Source: Bacteroidota bacterium
GTDB lineage: Bacteria; Bacteroidota; Bacteroidia; Bacteroidales; NBLH01
DNA: 64,000 nucleotides
Assembly (NCBI GenBank): GCA_025361565.1
Contig: JANYKN010000189.1
Location: 62,001 to 126,000 of the forward strand
Direction: 5' to 3'
The notes beneath the pieces were generated by a model. It was given only the letters and a program-made list of their open reading frames with translations. It ran no database searches and was not told where the DNA came from. Both the position numbers and the translations under genes were made by a program. Positions within the stretch are counted from its first letter, which is position 1; each line of letters begins with the position of its first letter. Positions 2,119 through 12,806 of this stretch are shown piece by piece.

Positions 2119-3690
2119 ATGTCAGAAGACCAAAAAAAGCAGTTAGAACAACAACTCTGGAATATTGCCAACACCTTGCGTGGCAAAATGAATGCGGATG
2201 AATTTCGTGATTATATCCTGGGTTTTATTTTCTATAAATACCTTTCGGAAAAAATGTATCGATATGCCGATTCCATATTAAAACAGGACGGTATCAAGTA
2301 TTCCGAAATCAAAGAGGAAACTGCAAAAGGAAAAGAATATATCGAAGCCATCAAGGAAGAAGCCCTGGAGAAATTGGGTTATTTTCTGAAGCCTTCCGAA
2401 TTGTTTAGCGAAGTGGCTAAACGTGGCAATAATGGTAAAGAAGGCAAGGAAAGTTTCATTTTGGAGGACTTACAAAAAATCCTCACCAATATTGAACAAA
2501 GTACAATGGGAACTGCCAGCGAGGACGATTTTGACAATCTATTTGAAGACCTCGACCTGACCAGTACCAAATTAGGAAGAACAGAATCAGCCAAAAACGA
2601 AATCATTTCAAAGGTTTTGGCTCATCTTGATAAAATTGATTTTCAGCTCGATAACAACGAACTGGATATTTTGGGCGATGCTTATGAATACCTGATTGGC
2701 CAGTTTGCCAGCGGTGCAGGAAAAAAAGCAGGTGAATTTTACACTCCCCAAGGTGTTAGTAAAGTATTGGCCAGGATTGTTACCACTGGTAAAAGCAAAC
2801 TGAAATCTGCCTATGATCCAACATGCGGTTCTGGTTCACTTTTATTGCGTGTTGCCAAAGAAGTAAAAGAAGTTGGCGACTTTTACGGACAGGAACTCAA
2901 CCGAACAACCTACAACCTTTGCCGAATGAATATGATTCTGCACGATGTACATTACCGTAAATTCGATATCAGGCAGGAAGATACGCTTGAAAGACCTCAA
3001 CACATTGATAAAAGATTTGAAGCTGTTGTGGCTAACCCTCCATTTTCGGCACAATGGAGTGCAAGTCCACTGTTTATGAGCGATGACCGTTTTAGCCAAT
3101 ACGGAAAATTAGCACCTTCGAGCAAAGCAGATTTTGCCTTTGTACAACACATGATTTACCAATTGGCAGAGAACGGAACAATGGCCATTGTACTGCCTCA
3201 CGGTGTTTTATTTCGTGGAGGTGCAGAACAACACATTCGTAAATACCTGATTGAAGACCGAAATTACCTGGATGCCGTTATTGGATTACCTGCCAATATC
3301 TTTTATGGAACCAGCATTCCAACTTGTATCCTGGTATTTAAAAAATGCCGCGAAAACCCCGAAGATGTTTTGTTTATTGATGCCAGCCAGCATTTTGAAA
3401 AGGTTAAAACACAAAATAACCTCAGGGATGAGGACATTGATAAGATAATTGAAACCTACCGCAACCGCAGCGAAGAAGAAAAATATAGCAAGCGAATTCA
3501 ACTACAAAATATTGCTTCGCAGGATTACAACTTGAATATCCCAAGATACGTTGACACTTTTGAAGCTGAAGACAGCATTGATATCAACAAATTGGCAGCT
3601 GAGCTTGTGGAACTTGACAAACAAATAATCGAAACCGATAAAACGATAGCTGGATTTTGCAAAGAATTGAATATTTCAACACCCTTCTAA
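2119..3690 (+). CDS. hsdM: type I restriction-modification system, methyltransferase subunit HsdM
   Basis: N6-adenine DNA methyltransferase that modifies host sites and forms the core of the HsdR-M-S complex. The 523-residue protein has the helical HsdM N-terminal domain (about 9-150). The SAM-binding motif I follows (DPTCGSGSLLL, about 234-244), and the catalytic motif IV NPPF is at about 306-309. Length and order match the family, and nothing is broken. It opens the island that ends with hsdR at 12806. hsdS lies 2.5 kb downstream, separated by a GxxExxY cassette and BRO/KilA-N genes. The stop codon at 3688-3690 is followed after 2 bases by the left end of that cassette, so the insertion left hsdM intact. 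Confidence 0.95.
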   Translation: MSEDQKKQLEQQLWNIANTLRGKMNADEFRDYILGFIFYKYLSEKMYRYADSILKQDGIKYSEIKEETAKGKEYIEAIKEEALEKLGYFLKPSELFSEVAKRGNNGKEGKESFILEDLQKILTNIEQSTMGTASEDDFDNLFEDLDLTSTKLGRTESAKNEIISKVLAHLDKIDFQLDNNELDILGDAYEYLIGQFASGAGKKAGEFYTPQGVSKVLARIVTTGKSKLKSAYDPTCGSGSLLLRVAKEVKEVGDFYGQELNRTTYNLCRMNMILHDVHYRKFDIRQEDTLERPQHIDKRFEAVVANPPFSAQWSASPLFMSDDRFSQYGKLAPSSKADFAFVQHMIYQLAENGTMAIVLPHGVLFRGGAEQHIRKYLIEDRNYLDAVIGLPANIFYGTSIPTCILVFKKCRENPEDVLFIDASQHFEKVKTQNNLRDEDIDKIIETYRNRSEEEKYSKRIQLQNIASQDYNLNIPRYVDTFEAEDSIDINKLAAELVELDKQIIETDKTIAGFCKELNISTPF

Positions 3691-3692
3691 TT

Positions 3693-4236
3693 GTCAGCAT
3701 TAAGATTTTTAGGATTAAAGGATGATAGGATTATGAAATACGAAGATATAACGCATAAAATAATTGGTTGTGCAATGAAAGTGCATAGCATTTTAGGAAA
3801 TGGTTTTCAGGAAGTAATTTATCAGAGAGCTTTAGCCATAGAAATGTCAAATCAAGACTTGGGTTATAAGAGAGAAATGGAAATGACCATTTTTTATGAA
3901 GGCATTGATATTGGAACCAGAAGGGTCGATTTTTTTGTTGAAGATAATATTATGGTTGAATTAAAGGCGCATATAAAATTGGAAGATGTTCATCTAGCCC
4001 AAGCAATGAATTACTGTCAGGCATACAATTTACCAATAGGATTGCTTATAAATTTTGGTGCAAAAAGCCTTGAATTTAAAAGGGTATACAACGTAAATCA
4101 CCCAGACAATAAGGATTACATCAAAAATAATCCTAAAAAGTTAGGTTAAAGATTAAACTGATTAATCTAAAATAGGTTGGTTCATTCAGAAGCAGAAATC
4201 CTTAAATTATAAAATCTTAAAAATCATAATTAAGAC
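3693..4236 (+). mobile_element. GxxExxY cassette with imperfect inverted-repeat ends
   Basis: A 544-base unit beginning GTCAGCATTAAGATTTTTAG (3693-3712) and ending AAAATCATAATTAAGAC (to 4236). The left end (3693-3735) and the reverse complement of the right end (4195-4236) share TAGGATT/AAGATT, AAGGAT and GTC in the same order. The only gene inside is the GxxExxY protein. The same two ends, without the gene, occur back to back inside hsdS at 6872-6965. I infer a mobile or formerly mobile palindrome-ended cassette that carries its own nuclease-like protein. No transposase is visible. Confidence 0.55.
3733..4149 (+). CDS. GxxExxY family protein, PD-(D/E)XK nuclease-like
   Basis: Protein of 138 residues with the motif that names the family: GFQEVIY at residues 24-30 (G-x-x-E-x-x-Y). 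The candidate metal-binding/nuclease residues are Asp66, Glu76 and Lys78 (RRVDFFVEDNIMVELKAH), the D...E-x-K pattern of PD-(D/E)XK enzymes. Then follow QAMNYCQAYNLPIGLLINFG and a C-terminal FKRV. The family is common in Bacteroidota, and its biochemical role is not established to my knowledge. The frame also runs from a TTG at 3691, but family members start at the MKYEDITHKIIG region, so ATG 3733 is chosen. Bases 3693-3732 are the cassette end. The gene fills a palindrome-ended unit between hsdM and the first BRO gene. A homing-like role is a guess. Confidence 0.85.
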   Translation: MKYEDITHKIIGCAMKVHSILGNGFQEVIYQRALAIEMSNQDLGYKREMEMTIFYEGIDIGTRRVDFFVEDNIMVELKAHIKLEDVHLAQAMNYCQAYNLPIGLLINFGAKSLEFKRVYNVNHPDNKDYIKNNPKKLG

Positions 4237-4238
4237 AA

Positions 4239-4553
4239 ATGAAAGACACAATAAAAATATTTGAAGATAAAAAAATCCGCACCCTTTGGGATGATGAACA
4301 GGAGAAATGGTATATCTCAATTGTAGACGTAGTTAGCGTATTAACCGAAAGTGTAGATCCTACTGCTTATTGGCGAAAGTTAAAGCAAAGACTCAAAGAA
4401 GAAGGAAATGAAACCGTGACGAATTGTCACGGTTTGAAAATGCAAGCACCAGACGGTAAAATGCGCATGACCGATGTTGCTGATACCGAACAACTTTTCA
4501 GGCTGGTGCAATTTATACTATCGCCAAAGGCAGTGGCTTTTATCAAAAAATAA
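4239..4553 (+). CDS. BRO family N-terminal (phage antirepressor-like) protein, truncated copy
   Basis: Encodes 104 residues starting MKDTIKIFEDKKIRTLW, the BRO-N domain found in phage antirepressors. It is nearly the same as the first 100 residues of the second BRO gene at 5430. Similarity ends at SPKAVAF, after which only IKK and a stop remain, so the SPKAEPFKLWLAQ continuation and the whole C-terminal half are lost. The break lies next to the KilA-N gene, which starts 8 bases after the stop, suggesting that a recombination or insertion event removed the 3' part. Codons at 4411-4435 form a perfect 10-base inverted repeat. Function of this fragment is doubtful. Confidence 0.75.
   Translation: MKDTIKIFEDKKIRTLWDDEQEKWYISIVDVVSVLTESVDPTAYWRKLKQRLKEEGNETVTNCHGLKMQAPDGKMRMTDVADTEQLFRLVQFILSPKAVAFIKK
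4411..4435. repeat. perfect inverted repeat inside first BRO gene
   Basis: Arms AAACCGTGAC (4411-4420) and GTCACGGTTT (4426-4435) with loop GAATT. It sits at the same codons as the differently spelled repeat in the second BRO gene (5608-5632). Confidence 0.9.
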
Positions 4554-4561
4554 ATAGAATT

Positions 4562-5317
4562 ATGGCAAAAAATAAAACCATCAATGTAAAAGGAACAGAA
4601 ATCACCATTTTTAAGGGAAATGAATCGGATTTTATTTCACTTACTGATATAGCTCGATATAAAGATGCCAATAACATGGATGCAATTATCCAAAATTGGC
4701 TTAGGAATAGAAACACCGTTGAGTTATTGGGCTTTTGGGAAACAATGTATAATCCCGATTTTAAACCCCTCGAATTCGAGGGGTTTAGAAAACAAGCCGG
4801 ATTGAATAGTTTTGTGCTTACGCCAAAAAAAGGGATTGAAACAACCAATGCAATTGGAATCACTTCAAAATCGGGCCGCTATGGTGGCACTTTTGCTCAT
4901 AAAGATATTGCTTTTGAGTTTGCATCATGGATTTCAATTGAATTTAAATTGTACATAATCAAAGAATTTCAGCGCCTGAAAGATGATGAAAACGACCGAC
5001 TTAAATTAACATGGAACCTCCACCGCACACTTTCAAAAATAAATTACAGGATACATACCGATTCAATCAAACAAAATATTATTCCTGAAAATGTAACCAA
5101 AGAACAGGCAAACAGCATTTATGCAAACGAAGCCGATGTGCTTAACGTGGCTTTATTTGGCAAAACAGCCAAACAATGGCGCGATGCAAACCCTGGTAAT
5201 GAAGGAAATATCAGGGACCAGGCCACCATTGAACAATTATTCGTACTGGCCAATATTGAAAGTATGAACGCCGAATTTATCAGGATGAATTTATCTCAAA
5301 GCGAAAGATTGATATAA
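4562..5317 (+). CDS. KilA-N domain protein
   Basis: A 251-residue KilA-N domain DNA-binding protein of the type found in phages and in Bacteroidota type I restriction loci. Signature stretches are SLTDIARYKD (about 26-35), IIQNWLRNRNTVELLG (about 42-57), AGLNSFVLTPKKGIE (about 79-93) and GRYGGTFAHKDIAFEFASW (about 105-123). IEFKLYIIKEFQRLK (about 126-140) ends the domain. The helical C-terminal part contains FGKTAKQWRDANPGNEGNIRDQA, a feature of the long KilA-N subgroup. It lies between two BRO genes. A regulatory or phage-response role is inferred from family and context only. A perfect 26-base palindrome lies in its coding sequence at 4762-4787. Confidence 0.88.
   Translation: MAKNKTINVKGTEITIFKGNESDFISLTDIARYKDANNMDAIIQNWLRNRNTVELLGFWETMYNPDFKPLEFEGFRKQAGLNSFVLTPKKGIETTNAIGITSKSGRYGGTFAHKDIAFEFASWISIEFKLYIIKEFQRLKDDENDRLKLTWNLHRTLSKINYRIHTDSIKQNIIPENVTKEQANSIYANEADVLNVALFGKTAKQWRDANPGNEGNIRDQATIEQLFVLANIESMNAEFIRMNLSQSERLI
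4762..4787. repeat. perfect 26-base palindrome inside the KilA-N gene
   Basis: Thirteen-base arms without loop, centred on GAATTC (arm TAAACCCCTCGAA). It encodes FKPLEFEGF in the linker between conserved KilA-N segments. Confidence 0.9.
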
Positions 5318-5429: not shown

Positions 5430-6268
5430 ATGACCAAACAAGATACAATTAAAATATTTGAAGACAAAAAAGTCCGTACCCTTTGGGATGATGAACAGGA
5501 GAAATGGTATTTTTCAATTATAGATGTAATTGAAATTCTTACTCAAACAGACAGACCAAGAAAGTATTGGAGTGATCTTAAAGCAAAACTAAAGAAAGAA
5601 GGAAGTGAACTGTCCGAAAAAATCGGACAGTTGAAATTAAAGGCTGAAGATGGTAAATCACGCATGACCGATGTGGCCGATACCGAACAACTTTTCAGGC
5701 TGATACAATCCATTCCATCGCCAAAAGCAGAGCCTTTTAAACTTTGGCTGGCACAAATTGCAAGTGAGCGACTTGACGAAATGCAGGATCCCGAATTGAC
5801 CATAGACAGGGCATTGGAGCAATATTTACGCCTGGGCTACAGCGAAAACTGGATTAACCAGCGCCTCAAAAGCATTGAAATTCGCAAAGAACTGACCGAT
5901 GAATGGAAAAAACGGGGCTTAAAGGAAGGAGTGCAGTTTGCCACATTAACCGATATTATAACCAAAGCCTGGGCCGACAAACCACCAAAGAATATAAAGT
6001 ACTCAAAGGTTTGAAAAAAGAAAACCTGCGCGACAACATGACCAACACCGAACTGATTTTAAACATGTTGGCCGAAGCCTCCACCAAAGACATTTCGCAG
6101 GCAGTAAACCCCGAAACCTATGCAGAAAGCCAGAAAGTGGCCAAACAAGGCGGCAATGTGGCCAAAGTAGCACGGTTGGAACTCGAAGCCAAAACAGGTA
6201 AAAAAGTGGTTACCGCATTAAATGCCAAAACAGCATTGAAAAAGAAAAATAATGAAATCAGCGAATAA
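5430..6268 (+). pseudogene. BRO family antirepressor-like gene with a -1 frameshift
   Basis: The 5' frame (5430-6014) encodes the BRO-N domain (TIKIFEDKKVRTLW, MTDVADTEQLFRLIQ, IPSPKAEPFKLWLAQIASER) and most of the C-terminal region to LTDIITKAWADK. There the expected TTKEYKVLKGLKKENLRDNM continues in another frame (about 5976-6268), ending NAKTALKKKNNEISE. The change sits at GACAAACC around 5978-5985: one extra A would restore a continuous protein of about 279 residues. It may be a true inactivating deletion or a sequencing error in an A-run. No canonical slippery heptamer is present. The end overlaps the hsdS start by 17 bases. This is the full-length paralogue of the truncated copy at 4239. 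Confidence 0.82.
5608..5632. repeat. perfect inverted repeat inside second BRO gene
   Basis: Arms AACTGTCCGA (5608-5617) and TCGGACAGTT (5623-5632) with loop AAAAA. It has the same arm and loop lengths and the same codon position as the repeat in the first BRO gene, but a different sequence. Confidence 0.9.
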
Positions 6269-7520
6269 AAACACCAGTACAGAGCGCAGCCGAAGCATAC
6301 CCCAATTGCGTTTTCCTGAATTTAAAGGGGAATGGGAAAAGAAAAAATTGGGGGAAATTGCGGAAATCAATCCTTCAAATAAAACCTTACCGGATGATTT
6401 TATTTACATTGATTTGGAGAGCGTTGTTAGTGGGGAATTATTAAAAGAAAACTTAATAAATAAAAATGACGCTCCAAGTAGAGCACAGAGAGTTTTAGAT
6501 AATGAAGATGTATTATTTCAAATGGTCAGACCTTATCAAAAGAACAATTTTTATTTTAATAGAATTGGAAACTATGTAGCTTCAACTGGGTATGCTCAAA
6601 TAAGAACAAAACAAAATTCAATGTTTGTTTTTCAATATTTACATTTTCAAAAATTTGTTGATAAGGTAATTGAAAGATGCACCGGGACTAGTTATCCTGC
6701 AATAAACTCAACGGATTTATCAAATATTTTAATATCACTCCCATCCCTCCCCGAACAAACCCACATCGCCCAATTCTTCACCTCCATAGACCAAAAAATA
6801 AGCCAACTCAAACAAAAGAAAAACCTTTTGGAGCAATACAAAAAAGGTGTGATGCAAAAAATCTTCAAGCCGTCAGCATTAGGATACATAGGATTAAAAG
6901 ATGAAAGGATTATTGAAGAAAATGAAATCCTTCAATCATCAAATCCTAAAAATCATAATCTAGACAGTTTGCGCTTTAAGGATGAGGATGGAGAGGAGTT
7001 TCCTGAGTGGGAAGAGAAGAAGTTGGGGGAAGTGGGAAAGTTTTTTGCAGGTGGAGATTTAGACAAATTAGATTACAGCAAAGTTAAAGATGAAAATCAC
7101 ATTTATCCTATTTATGCGAATGGAACAGGTGAGGGTATTTATGGTTATGCAACAACTTTTCAGTATAATTCAAATTGTGTAACAGTAAGTGGAAGAGGTA
7201 ATTTAGGAAATGCAAATGCAAGAATTCAAAAGTTTAATGCAATAGTTAGGTTAATTGTTATTGAACCTAAAGAATTTATGAATCCCAAATTTTTAGAAGA
7301 GATAATAAATAATACAAAATTTGCTATTGAAAGCACAGGAGTTCCCCAATTGACAGTTCCTCAAATTATTTCCTACAAAATACTTATTCCTTGCCTTGCA
7401 GAACAAACCAAAATCGCCAATTTCCTTACTGCCATTGATGAAAAAATAAGCCATTGCAGCAAGCAGATTCAAAAAACGGAGCAGTGGAAAAAGGGATTGT
7501 TGCAGAAGATGTTTGTTTGA
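6252..7520 (+). CDS. hsdS: type I restriction-modification specificity subunit HsdS
   Basis: DNA-recognition subunit with two target recognition domains that read the two halves of the site. In the 422-residue protein, TRD1 begins PQLRFPEFKGEWEKKKLGE (about 17). It ends at LPSLPEQTHIAQFF, followed by coiled helix CR1 (IDQKISQLKQKKNLLEQYKK, about 175-200). TRD2 begins LRFKDEDGEEFPEWEEKKLG (about 240) and ends with the second helix (AIDEKISHCSKQIQKTEQWKKG) at the C-terminus. Between CR1 and TRD2 lies an unusual 33-residue insert, PSALGYIGLKDERI...NHNLDS. It is the translation of a palindromic DNA element related to the GxxExxY cassette ends (6872-6965). The N-terminus also contains STERSRS, the translation of a common Bacteroidota repeat. 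Both insertions keep the frame. The gene starts inside the end of the BRO gene. Confidence 0.95.
   Translation: MKSANKNTSTERSRSIPQLRFPEFKGEWEKKKLGEIAEINPSNKTLPDDFIYIDLESVVSGELLKENLINKNDAPSRAQRVLDNEDVLFQMVRPYQKNNFYFNRIGNYVASTGYAQIRTKQNSMFVFQYLHFQKFVDKVIERCTGTSYPAINSTDLSNILISLPSLPEQTHIAQFFTSIDQKISQLKQKKNLLEQYKKGVMQKIFKPSALGYIGLKDERIIEENEILQSSNPKNHNLDSLRFKDEDGEEFPEWEEKKLGEVGKFFAGGDLDKLDYSKVKDENHIYPIYANGTGEGIYGYATTFQYNSNCVTVSGRGNLGNANARIQKFNAIVRLIVIEPKEFMNPKFLEEIINNTKFAIESTGVPQLTVPQIISYKILIPCLAEQTKIANFLTAIDEKISHCSKQIQKTEQWKKGLLQKMFV
6276..6297 (+). repeat. in-frame fragment of a GAGCGCAGYCGAAG-type Bacteroidota repeat
   Basis: Bases AGTACAGAGCGCAGCCGAAG near the hsdS start, read as STERSRS. From memory this sequence type is dispersed in Bacteroidota genomes. 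A related palindrome with GAGCGGAGTCGAAG occurs at 40318-40373. Confidence 0.5.
6872..6965. repeat. solo palindromic element inserted in frame in hsdS
   Basis: Starts GTCAGCATTAGGATACATAG and ends CCTAAAAATCATAATCTAGAC. The two halves are imperfect inverted repeats (GTC...TAGGATT..AAGATGAAAGGAT against the reverse complement GTC...TAGGATTTGATGATTGAAGGAT). Both halves match the two ends of the GxxExxY cassette at 3693-4236. It codes for a peptide without stop codons. Confidence 0.7.
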
Positions 7521-9968: not shown

Positions 9969-12806
9969 ATGGCAAAACAACCCGAACAAATTTTAGAAGA
10001 CAATCTGATAATTCAACTTCAAAAGCTGGGCTATGCTTATCTTGCTATCAATGACGAAAAGGATTTGCTTGCCAACCTTAAAGCTCAATTAGAAAAGCAC
10101 AACAACATTACTTTTACAGCCAAAGAATTTGACAGGGTTTTAAATATCCTGAGTAAAGGTTCGGTATTTGAAAAAGCAAAAACACTCAGGGAAAAACAAC
10201 ATATTGTAAAGGATAACGGTGAAAGCCTGTACTTTGAGTTTATAGAACAGGAAAACTGGTGTCAAAACCTTTTTCAGGTTACCAGGCAAGTAAGCATGGA
10301 AGGTACTTACAAAAACCGTTACGATGTTACTTTGCTTATCAATGGTTTGCCCCTGGTTCAAATTGAACTCAAACGCAGAGGAATAGAATTAAAAGAGGCT
10401 TTTAACCAGATAAACCGCTATCAGCGTCATTCGTTTGGTGCTTCCATTGGATTGTTTCAATACGTGCAAATATTTGTCATAAGCAATGGGGTAAATACAA
10501 AATATTACGCCAACAATAAATACCAATCCTTTAAACAAACTTTTTACTGGAGCCAGAACGACAATAAAACCATTACCCAACTGGAACAATTTACTTTTTG
10601 CTTTTTAGATACCTGCCATGTCTCTAAAATGATTTGCAAGTACATTGTTCTAAGCGAGGCCTATAAAATATTGATGGTTTTGCGGCCTTATCAGTTTTTT
10701 GCAGTTGAAGCTTTGATTGGAAAGGTAAAAGACACCAATAAAAACGGCTATATATGGCATACCACAGGTTCAGGCAAAACTTTGACTTCATTCAAGGCCA
10801 GCCAGATATTGATGAACTTGCCCCAGGTTAAAAAAGTGGTTTTTGTTGTCGACCGCAAAGATTTGGATTTCCAAACCACCAAAGAATTCAACAGCTTTAG
10901 CAAAGGTAGCATTGACGGAACTGACAATACCAATGCCCTTGTAAAACAGTTTTCGGATGATACCAAATTGATAGTTACTACTATTCAGAAATTAAATACT
11001 GCCATCAGTAAAAAGCAGTATTTATACCGAATGGATAAATTGAAAGATGAGCGGATTGTATTTATTTTCGATGAATGCCATCGTTCACAGTTTGGCGAAA
11101 CCCACGCCAGGATTAAATCCTTCTTCAACAATATCCAACTGTTTGGTTTTACAGGAACACCCATTTTTGCTGATAATGCGGTTAAAAACGAACATGGTAA
11201 ACGCACCACCAAAGAACTGTTTGGTGATTGTTTGCACAAATATGTAATTACCGATGCCATTAAAGACGAAAATGTATTGAAGTTTTCGGTTGAATATGTG
11301 GGCAGATACAAACAAAAAGAAGATAGTAAAACCAATATAGATATTGAAGTTGAGGACATTGACACCAAAGAGTTAATGGAATCGCCAATCCGATTGGGTA
11401 AAATTACCGATTACATTTTAGCGCATCATTACCGTAAAACTTACAACAAGGAATTCACAGCCATGTTTTGTGTGAGCAGCATTGAAACTTTGATTAAGTA
11501 TTACGATTTATTTCAATCCAAAAAAGAAGCAGGGCTTCACAATTTAAAGATTGCTACCATTTTTAGCTATGCAGCCAACGAAGATGATAAATCGGCCAAT
11601 GGTTTTATACCTGAAGAATTATCTGTTTTTGAAGAACCAAAGGTTTTATATGGACTGCAAGCCCACAGCAGGGAAAAGCTAGATGAGTTTATTGGGCATT
11701 ACAATAAAATGTTCGAAACCAATTTTTCAACCAGGGATAGCGAATCGTTTTACAACTATTACAACGATATTTCAAAAAAGGTAAAAGAACGCAAAATTGA
11801 CATACTGTTGGTTGTGAATATGTATCTCACAGGCTTTGACAGCACGACATTAAACACCATGTATGTTGACAAAAACCTCAAATATCATGGTTTGGTTCAG
11901 GCATATTCAAGAACCAACAGAATATTGAACGAGCAAAAATCACAAGGTAATATAGTAGTTTTCCGTAATCTCAAGCAAGCAACGGATGATGCCATTGCCT
12001 TGTTCAGCAACAAAGATGCAAAAGACATTATCATTGTTGAGCCTTACGAAGATTACGTTAAGAAATTTGACCAGGCTTTTAAAGATTTATTGAAAGTTAC
12101 CCCTTCGGTAAACAGTGTTAATGAACTGGAAAGTGAGCTGGAAGAGTTGGAATTTATCAAAGCATTTAGAGAATTGATGCGCTTGAAAAATGTTTTGAGC
12201 ACTTTTGCCGATTTTAGCTTTGATAACCTGGAGATGGACGAACAGCTTTTTGAAGATTATAAAAGTAAATATTTAGATCTTTACGATAAAGTAAAAACCA
12301 ACCACCAGAAGGAAAAAGTTTCAATACTGGAAGATGTTGATTTTGAACTCGAACTCATCCATCGAGACGAAATAAATGTAGCTTACATTCTTAAATTATT
12401 GGCCAACCTAAAAGGCAAAGACCAGGATAAAAGGCGAAAAGAAATCATTGATTTGCTTACAGGCGAAGTTAATTTGAGGAGCAAACGTGAATTGATTGAA
12501 AAATTCATTTTGGAAAATTTACCCCATGTTGCTGATTCCAATGATATTCCAGACACCTTTGAAAAATTCTGGAATGAAGAACAACTAATCGCTTTCAAAA
12601 AGTTATGCCAGGAAGAAAACCTGTCTTCAGGCAAAGTAGAAAAAATAATAGAAGGTTACCTTTTTGCCGAAAGAGAACCATTGCGTGATGAAGTCCTGGA
12701 TTTAATTGAAGGTGAAAAACCCACCATTTTAGAAAGGAAAAAAGTAGGCGACAGAATCCTGAGCAAAATAATGAAGTTTGTGGATACTTTTATTAATGGG
12801 ATGTAA
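9969..12806 (+). CDS. hsdR: type I restriction endonuclease subunit HsdR
   Basis: ATP-dependent translocase and nuclease subunit that cuts unmodified DNA when bound to HsdM/HsdS. The 945-residue protein has the N-terminal PD-(D/E)XK nuclease (Asp119 in RYDVTLLI, Glu133 and Lys135 in QIELKRRG). Superfamily 2 helicase motifs follow: Walker A HTTGSGKT (about 264-271), motif II DECHRSQFG (about 368-376) and motif III LFGFTGTP. The later motif MYLTGFDSTTLNTMYVDK precedes the QAYSRTNRI arginine-finger region (motif VI). The helical C-terminal part binds the methylase core. All key residues are present, so restriction activity is expected. It is separated from hsdS by the XRE/ImmA-PIN pair and a HigA-like gene. 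Confidence 0.95.
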   Translation: MAKQPEQILEDNLIIQLQKLGYAYLAINDEKDLLANLKAQLEKHNNITFTAKEFDRVLNILSKGSVFEKAKTLREKQHIVKDNGESLYFEFIEQENWCQNLFQVTRQVSMEGTYKNRYDVTLLINGLPLVQIELKRRGIELKEAFNQINRYQRHSFGASIGLFQYVQIFVISNGVNTKYYANNKYQSFKQTFYWSQNDNKTITQLEQFTFCFLDTCHVSKMICKYIVLSEAYKILMVLRPYQFFAVEALIGKVKDTNKNGYIWHTTGSGKTLTSFKASQILMNLPQVKKVVFVVDRKDLDFQTTKEFNSFSKGSIDGTDNTNALVKQFSDDTKLIVTTIQKLNTAISKKQYLYRMDKLKDERIVFIFDECHRSQFGETHARIKSFFNNIQLFGFTGTPIFADNAVKNEHGKRTTKELFGDCLHKYVITDAIKDENVLKFSVEYVGRYKQKEDSKTNIDIEVEDIDTKELMESPIRLGKITDYILAHHYRKTYNKEFTAMFCVSSIETLIKYYDLFQSKKEAGLHNLKIATIFSYAANEDDKSANGFIPEELSVFEEPKVLYGLQAHSREKLDEFIGHYNKMFETNFSTRDSESFYNYYNDISKKVKERKIDILLVVNMYLTGFDSTTLNTMYVDKNLKYHGLVQAYSRTNRILNEQKSQGNIVVFRNLKQATDDAIALFSNKDAKDIIIVEPYEDYVKKFDQAFKDLLKVTPSVNSVNELESELEELEFIKAFRELMRLKNVLSTFADFSFDNLEMDEQLFEDYKSKYLDLYDKVKTNHQKEKVSILEDVDFELELIHRDEINVAYILKLLANLKGKDQDKRRKEIIDLLTGEVNLRSKRELIEKFILENLPHVADSNDIPDTFEKFWNEEQLIAFKKLCQEENLSSGKVEKIIEGYLFAEREPLRDEVLDLIEGEKPTILERKKVGDRILSKIMKFVDTFINGM

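Follow-up and report, generated by a model that had tools for sequence, protein, structure and literature searches.

The closest systems in print to the elements described here are the REP/RAYT pairs and the CGTC-tagged REPs, both treated in the consulted sections of PMC3733652. As far as those sections go, REPs are 20–40 bp long and GTAG-tagged, and their gene encodes a Y1 transposase. REP/REPtron systems share with the present elements small dispersed palindromes, a palindrome-flanked gene, and copies inside genes (PMC3733652, same sections). In contrast, the solitary palindromes (solos) described here are rows of words of about 70–140 bp, and the gene encodes a predicted PD-(D/E)XK nuclease; at the locus under study, the enclosed gene matches PF13366 only and the solo is 94 bp long, running GTC...GAC. 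CGTC-tagged REPs, found in Bacteroidetes, Chlorobi, and others, are likewise palindromic and are reported without a dedicated transposase in the sections consulted. Their stems of 8–9 bp, loops of 4–5 bases, and CCA tail (PMC3733652, same sections) set them apart by description from the present elements, whose arms extend about 40 bp from TTGTC.

MITEs and insertion sequences resemble the present elements in having terminal inverted repeats and in occurring in gene-bearing and gene-less forms. Such repeats are present around relatives and in the element of the window (the whole stretch of 64,000 nucleotides that was analyzed, from a Bacteroidota bacterium). However, no transposase gene was found in the window's element, which is filled by the PF13366 frame alone. 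The Rickettsia palindromic elements, about 150 bp in length and known from Rickettsia, insert in frame into protein-coding genes (PMC10969869, in the part consulted); they are likened to the present elements by this insertion habit, not by sequence. Open PMC literature naming GxxExxY or its accessions is scarce and, in the portions consulted, does not deal with mobility; no description of GxxExxY mobility was found in it.

The first-pass annotation had proposed a mobile unit that occurs in long and short forms, a reading supported by solos in other genomes and by junctions found in three states. The unit in the window is very probably such a mobile element. It lies in a type I restriction island comprising hsdM, two BRO-N genes, a KilA-N gene, hsdS, and hsdR (9969–12806). 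The type I methyltransferase gene hsdM (2119–3690, forward strand) ends with its stop codon at 3688–3690, and a BRO-N gene (4239–4553, forward strand) starts with its ATG at 4239. The 548 bases between them open with TTGTC and close with GACAA, and the long-form element (3691–4238, forward strand) thus occupies the entire gap, abutting both the stop and the ATG. Direct reading places GTC at 3693–3695 and GAC at 4234–4236, slightly inside the likely element ends, and so bears out the earlier description of a GxxExxY gene enclosed by imperfect GTC...GAC inverted ends between the hsdM stop and the BRO start.

On the forward strand, the cassette consists of a left arm (3693–3732) with four GATT-type words spaced 8–9 bp apart, the GxxExxY gene (3733–4149, ATG at 3733), and a right arm (about 4197–4236) of the same type in inverted complement. 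Both arms were delimited from the sequence, the repeat search, and the consensus of relatives. The GxxExxY frame is open from TTG at 3691 onward, through the left arm, and by reading frames and profile matches it is the sole gene of the cassette. In the repeat search, direct repeats were recovered for the left arm (66 nt, 74%) and for the right arm (50 nt, 82%), and the cassette's left arm pairs with the right arm of the solo as an inverted repeat over 44 nt, with 75% complementarity.

The BRO and KilA-N genes of the island carry palindromes of their own. The BRO genes at 4239–4553 and 5430–6268 are near-duplicates in DNA (stretches of 89% and 80%); the first is short (104 aa), and the second splits into two overlapping frames near 5903–6014. 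Both harbor a 25-bp palindrome at the same codons but with different letters (4411–4435 and 5608–5632), and BRO genes of two other loci (L054, L103) have other palindromes at those codons, while those of L041 and L283 have none. The KilA-N gene contains a perfect 26-bp palindrome (4762–4787), and locus L067 has a different, 32-bp palindrome at the same codons. It seems that the coding palindrome is kept in these genes as its letters change.

The short form, in which the arms are joined without the gene, is found at 6872–6965 (forward strand), as the first-pass annotation had noted and as the sequence and repeat search confirm; folding and linker comparison also identify it. It lies in frame within hsdS (6252–7520, forward strand, Methylase_S match), where it encodes 34 residues of the central linker. 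These residues (206–239) stand against a three-residue linker in 12 of the 21 listed relatives, the paralogue of the same genome among them. Modeled as DNA (z −3.8) and as RNA (z −4.8), the solo outfolds every one of 200 dinucleotide shuffles. The in-frame insertion habit of the Rickettsia elements is thus seen in the window's HsdS, and the HsdS proteins of two loci from other organisms (L039, L046) similarly have palindrome-coded central-linker stretches, SELGLEGLEDDRI and SELRKKGLKDDRI. The cassette and the solo of the window share the start GTCAGCATTA, which occurs in none of the 54 left arms of the relatives listed (most have GTCTGAA). On the basis of this shared start, the two look like close kin.

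The protein encoded by the cassette matches PF13366 (E 3.9e-38, 130.9 bits against a curated cut-off of 22) and TIGR04256 (E 2.8e-39, 134.1 bits against a curated cut-off of 35). The PD-(D/E)XK-like residues pointed out earlier, D66, E76, and K78 (numbered from the ATG at 3733), do not vary in any of the 68 aligned sequences, and Q90, Y94, G24, E27, and Y30 are likewise kept across this alignment. A PDB sequence search with the protein gave no match. The AlphaFold2 model (mean pLDDT 90.7) gives nuclease folds among its structure matches, with SSO0001, which we take to be a Cas4, as the best (Foldseek E 1e-4; Z 9.2, rmsd 3.1, 100 residues); the remaining matches, all with Z below 8, were left out as kinship evidence. 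The GxxExxY protein is thus a predicted Cas4/RecB-like PD-(D/E)XK nuclease, similar to these enzymes in fold and in its D...ExK and QxxxY residues. Cas4 proteins harbor four cysteines of an iron–sulfur cluster. In contrast, no invariant or nearly invariant cysteine occurs among the columns of the 68-sequence alignment, and the GxxExxY protein is therefore not filed as a Cas4; its gene also differs in being enclosed by palindromic arms. Relatives in other phyla reach up to 90% identity among the matches listed.

Conserved termini recur around other GxxExxY genes. Loci were collected by protein similarity alone, and the best 80 of at least 583 confirmed candidates were analyzed. Fuzzy end patterns, derived by reading the flanks of these same 80 loci, match the left end in 62, the right end in 61, and both ends in 54. 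Since this makes the patterns dependent on the loci in which they are scored, a strict 16-base terminus was counted as well: 53 matches fall within 300 bp of the genes against 13 elsewhere, a 32.6-fold density, and the complement control gives 0. The strict terminus is near the gene in 33 of these best 80 loci and points outward in 18 of 28 upstream and 22 of 25 downstream matches. A pattern-free comparison of flank pairs gives a modest signal: relative to 1,194 control pairs, 34 of 87 loci score above the 99th percentile, and 13 loci exceed every control. The absence of conserved termini, named in the first-pass annotation as grounds for discarding its reading, is thus contradicted by the loci with both ends, and flanks read elsewhere show other word types enclosing further GxxExxY subfamilies. 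The association of arms with the gene is seen in more than one phylum.

Carriage by phages or plasmids was rejected: none of 50,697 phage records matched, and among 72,556 plasmid records there were 8 matches. Type A arms, one of which is repeated, occur on a Dolichospermum (cyanobacterial) plasmid (L308), next to genes for a helicase and for VapC, with no GxxExxY gene annotated between the arms. Rfam returned one sub-threshold match, to an unrelated family. At locus L093, a possible duplicated flank was noted by eye.

The arms are built from short words. Type A left arms (n = 25), aligned from GTC, read GTCTGAATTAgGATTt.TagGATT.aAgGAT.atAGgATTa, and type A right arms (n = 27), in reverse complement, read GTCTGAATTAgGATTT.T.GGATT....GATT.tAGGATT.t; type B arms read GTCTgAACC.TGATT...a.GATT and similar. 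GATT recurs every 8–9 bases, and the flanks of the 80 loci show an excess of self-identity at lags 8, 9, 16, and 17 relative to 2,580 control windows. A strict 10-bp helical repeat was accordingly rejected for these loci, the excess lying at lags 8–9 and 16–17 instead. The words are conserved and the spacers are variable, from which we infer recognition by a protein. In type A, the arms within a locus are no more alike than arms between loci (p 0.64), i.e., no compensation is seen; in type B, likeness within loci is seen (p 2e-4), although subtypes may cause it.

Word sets differ among GxxExxY subfamilies. The best-scoring loci of 30 sampled genomes have mostly other words when read by eye (e.g., CACAGAG, CACGGAG, CGCAAAG, and CAGATT), and ACGAATT arms belong to yet another subfamily. 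The genome of the window has six other GxxExxY copies; by eye, one (C83) has type A ends, one (C71) has type B ends, and the remaining four have other words, partly one-sided. On the protein tree, in which 65 of 125 inner branches are open and word-type labels are rough, arm type is clustered (32 changes against 69.8 when shuffled). Physical linkage alone would also give such clustering.

Gene-less palindromes were read in several other genomes. A set of 13 elements comprises 11 solos of 70–139 bp and two long forms of 510 and 667 bp, and all seven tested solos fold better than shuffles (z −3.5 to −11.9). Of 395 sampled genomes of the window's phylum, 186 have PF13366, 65 have the A/B terminus (reversed control, 7), and 31 have a triple CTCYGYG pattern (reversed control, 2). 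Together with the empty complement control, these counts led to the rejection of a chance origin of the ends. Of the 65 genomes with the A/B terminus, 41 also have PF13366, where 33.7 are expected within taxonomic families (p 0.0013); the same is true of 28 of the 31 CTCYGYG genomes (23.8 expected likewise, p 0.023) and of 67 of the 94 genomes with either pattern (55.8 expected likewise, p 5e-5). A/B ends occur without a PF13366 match in 24 of the 65 genomes, 17 of which belong to one genus.

Solos also occur in particular arrangements. Among loci L193–L195, solos form clusters and tandem rows within 45 kb in one genome, and in another genome three of them belong to repeated units of about 200–400 bases. 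In four species of one genus (L161, L162, L165, and L168), the 3′ end of a uvrA-like gene, presumably uvrA itself, carries solos that are missing from other species of that genus.

A different enzyme could move the palindromes, for instance a Y1 (RAYT-type) transposase encoded elsewhere, with GxxExxY as trapped cargo. REPs are moved by RAYT transposases according to the consulted sections of PMC3733652, and Y1_Tnp, present in 210 of 296 genomes, is associated with the palindromes (OR 3.2, p 7e-4). However, the association of PF13366 in the same 296 genomes is at least as strong (OR 3.9, p 1.5e-6), and the enclosed gene is GxxExxY in locus after locus. Movement by another enzyme of this kind is considered quite unlikely. 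The simplest reading, since GxxExxY is the sole gene inside, is that the nuclease is itself the mover, and we lean toward a family of mobile elements with long and short forms that would be moved by their own nuclease.

The elements tend to sit flush between genes. By mechanical reading frames, on which all of these counts rest, an ATG or GTG starts within four bases of 30 of 61 right ends, 21 of these beginning an open frame of at least 80 codons; for left ends the figure is 6 of 62, and for random positions it is 11%. Of 54 left ends, 18 follow the stop codon of a frame on the same strand by 1–7 bases, and in 7 further ones the frame is terminated by the element's own GTCTGA or GTCTAA. Selection against broken genes would leave wider intergenic sites too.

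Orthologous junctions occur in occupied and empty states. In genus g10, 101 genomes were screened with the joined flanks of five sites, and picked loci among the matches listed were read at two sites, S1 and S2. Of 26 loci at S1, 10 have cassettes with CACAGAG/CACAAAG-like arms, 5 have cassettes with ACGAATT-like arms directly after the same stop codon, 4 have an overlapping stop and start (TAATG), and 5 have a gap of about 20–30 bases with no element. Three proteins of the CACAGAG-like kind and five of the ACGAATT-like kind are 37–40% identical, indicating two arrivals in one junction. Two further S1 loci, from two species (L245, L246), have a left-arm remnant together with another hairpin, built of CAAGGTTTT/AAAACCTTG words. 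At S2 (22 loci), 6 have long inserts, one with extra sequence, 8 have short forms of one word type and 2 of another, 5 have no element, and 1 was not aligned; the long form was called by length and end sequences in L247–L250 and L265–L268.

At the 3′ end of hsdM, 20 loci were read. An element follows hsdM in the window, in L285 and L301, and, from the set of 80 loci, in L039, L048, and L062, with L062 and L301 alike at this junction. The start of hsdS lies at most three bases from hsdM, or overlaps it, in L286, L290, L292, L296, L297, L299, and L303, the last being the paralogue in the window's own genome, at whose empty junction three bases separate hsdM from hsdS. Gaps of 9–50 bases without this element are found in L287–L289, L291, L293–L295, and L298, and L300 and L302 were left unassigned. 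In L054, hsdM is followed by BRO with one base between them, the empty counterpart of the window's junction. L295 and L299 have another repeat at the hsdM/hsdS junction, starting CGTCATTGCGAG or CGTCATCGCGAG and lying within the frame in L299.

Insertion sites are many and different, and some junctions are reused. The presence and absence at orthologous junctions called for by the first-pass annotation is seen between species rather than between strains, so that its borders cannot be read cleanly; neither of the two refuting outcomes named there overturned its reading. The empty sites (the two in g10, hsdM, and three in genus g60) are too diverged for a target duplication to be read.

These junctions also bear on a homing mechanism, in which GxxExxY would be a homing-type nuclease gene that cuts palindromes lacking it and inserts a copy of itself at their center, the palindromes themselves spreading by some other route. 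The location of the gene between the two arms of a palindrome would fit such a scheme, as would the arrangement in L040 and L047 (a full palindrome, then the gene, then a right arm) and the occurrence of long and short forms at S2 in different species. However, the short forms at S2 differ in their words from the long forms there, and the long forms at S1 face empty junctions (TAATG) rather than solos, which makes homing an unlikely explanation.

Alternatively, the unit may no longer be mobile and instead represent a host-useful or defense gene carried with restriction operons, with its hairpins acting as RNA or as regulatory sites. In line with this, many species retain cassettes at one site, the RNA form of the palindromes folds strongly, and hsd homologues lie near 25 of the 80 loci (the best 80 of at least 583). 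Yet none of the 30 loci of the phylum set has an hsd homologue nearby, and on these two counts restriction operons were rejected as a general partner. Gene-less palindromes within HsdS coding sequence, the existence of empty junctions, and a junction entered by two unlike cassettes likewise speak against a non-mobile role, which is very improbable.

In the preferred reading of an element moved by its own nuclease, the long form consists of a single GxxExxY nuclease gene with an arm on either side, amounting to about 460–600 bp in simple cases. Each arm would comprise about four short words placed 8–10 bp apart, the right arm being the inverted complement of the left, and the short form would be the two arms joined as a gene-less hairpin of about 70–140 bp. 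It is hypothesized that the Cas4/RecB-like nuclease of the long form recognizes the arms, either as duplex words or as a hairpin/cruciform, and cuts at the TTGTC/GACAA ends, thereby mobilizing the cassette that encodes it as well as short forms in trans. The words of each subfamily would determine the palindromes on which its nuclease acts, and joining may be finished by host repair or replication. Whether this extends to a phylum-spanning class of mobile elements is evenly balanced in our judgment; such a class would be moved by a lone Cas4-like PD-(D/E)XK nuclease and not by a known transposase, would take its specificity from words every 8–10 bp, would favor stop–start gaps, and would include CACAGAG-, GCAAAG-, and AGGATT-type palindromes as non-autonomous forms.

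Repeats in the HsdS linker are described as setting the gap of the recognition site (PMC3874165, in the part consulted), and an effect of the solo on specificity is plausible on this ground. Thus, solos in the HsdS linker may alter restriction specificity. If the unit is a transposable element, a single explanation would cover a large set of functionally uncharacterized genes together with many dispersed palindromes, and a nuclease family would then be able to do the work of a transposase.
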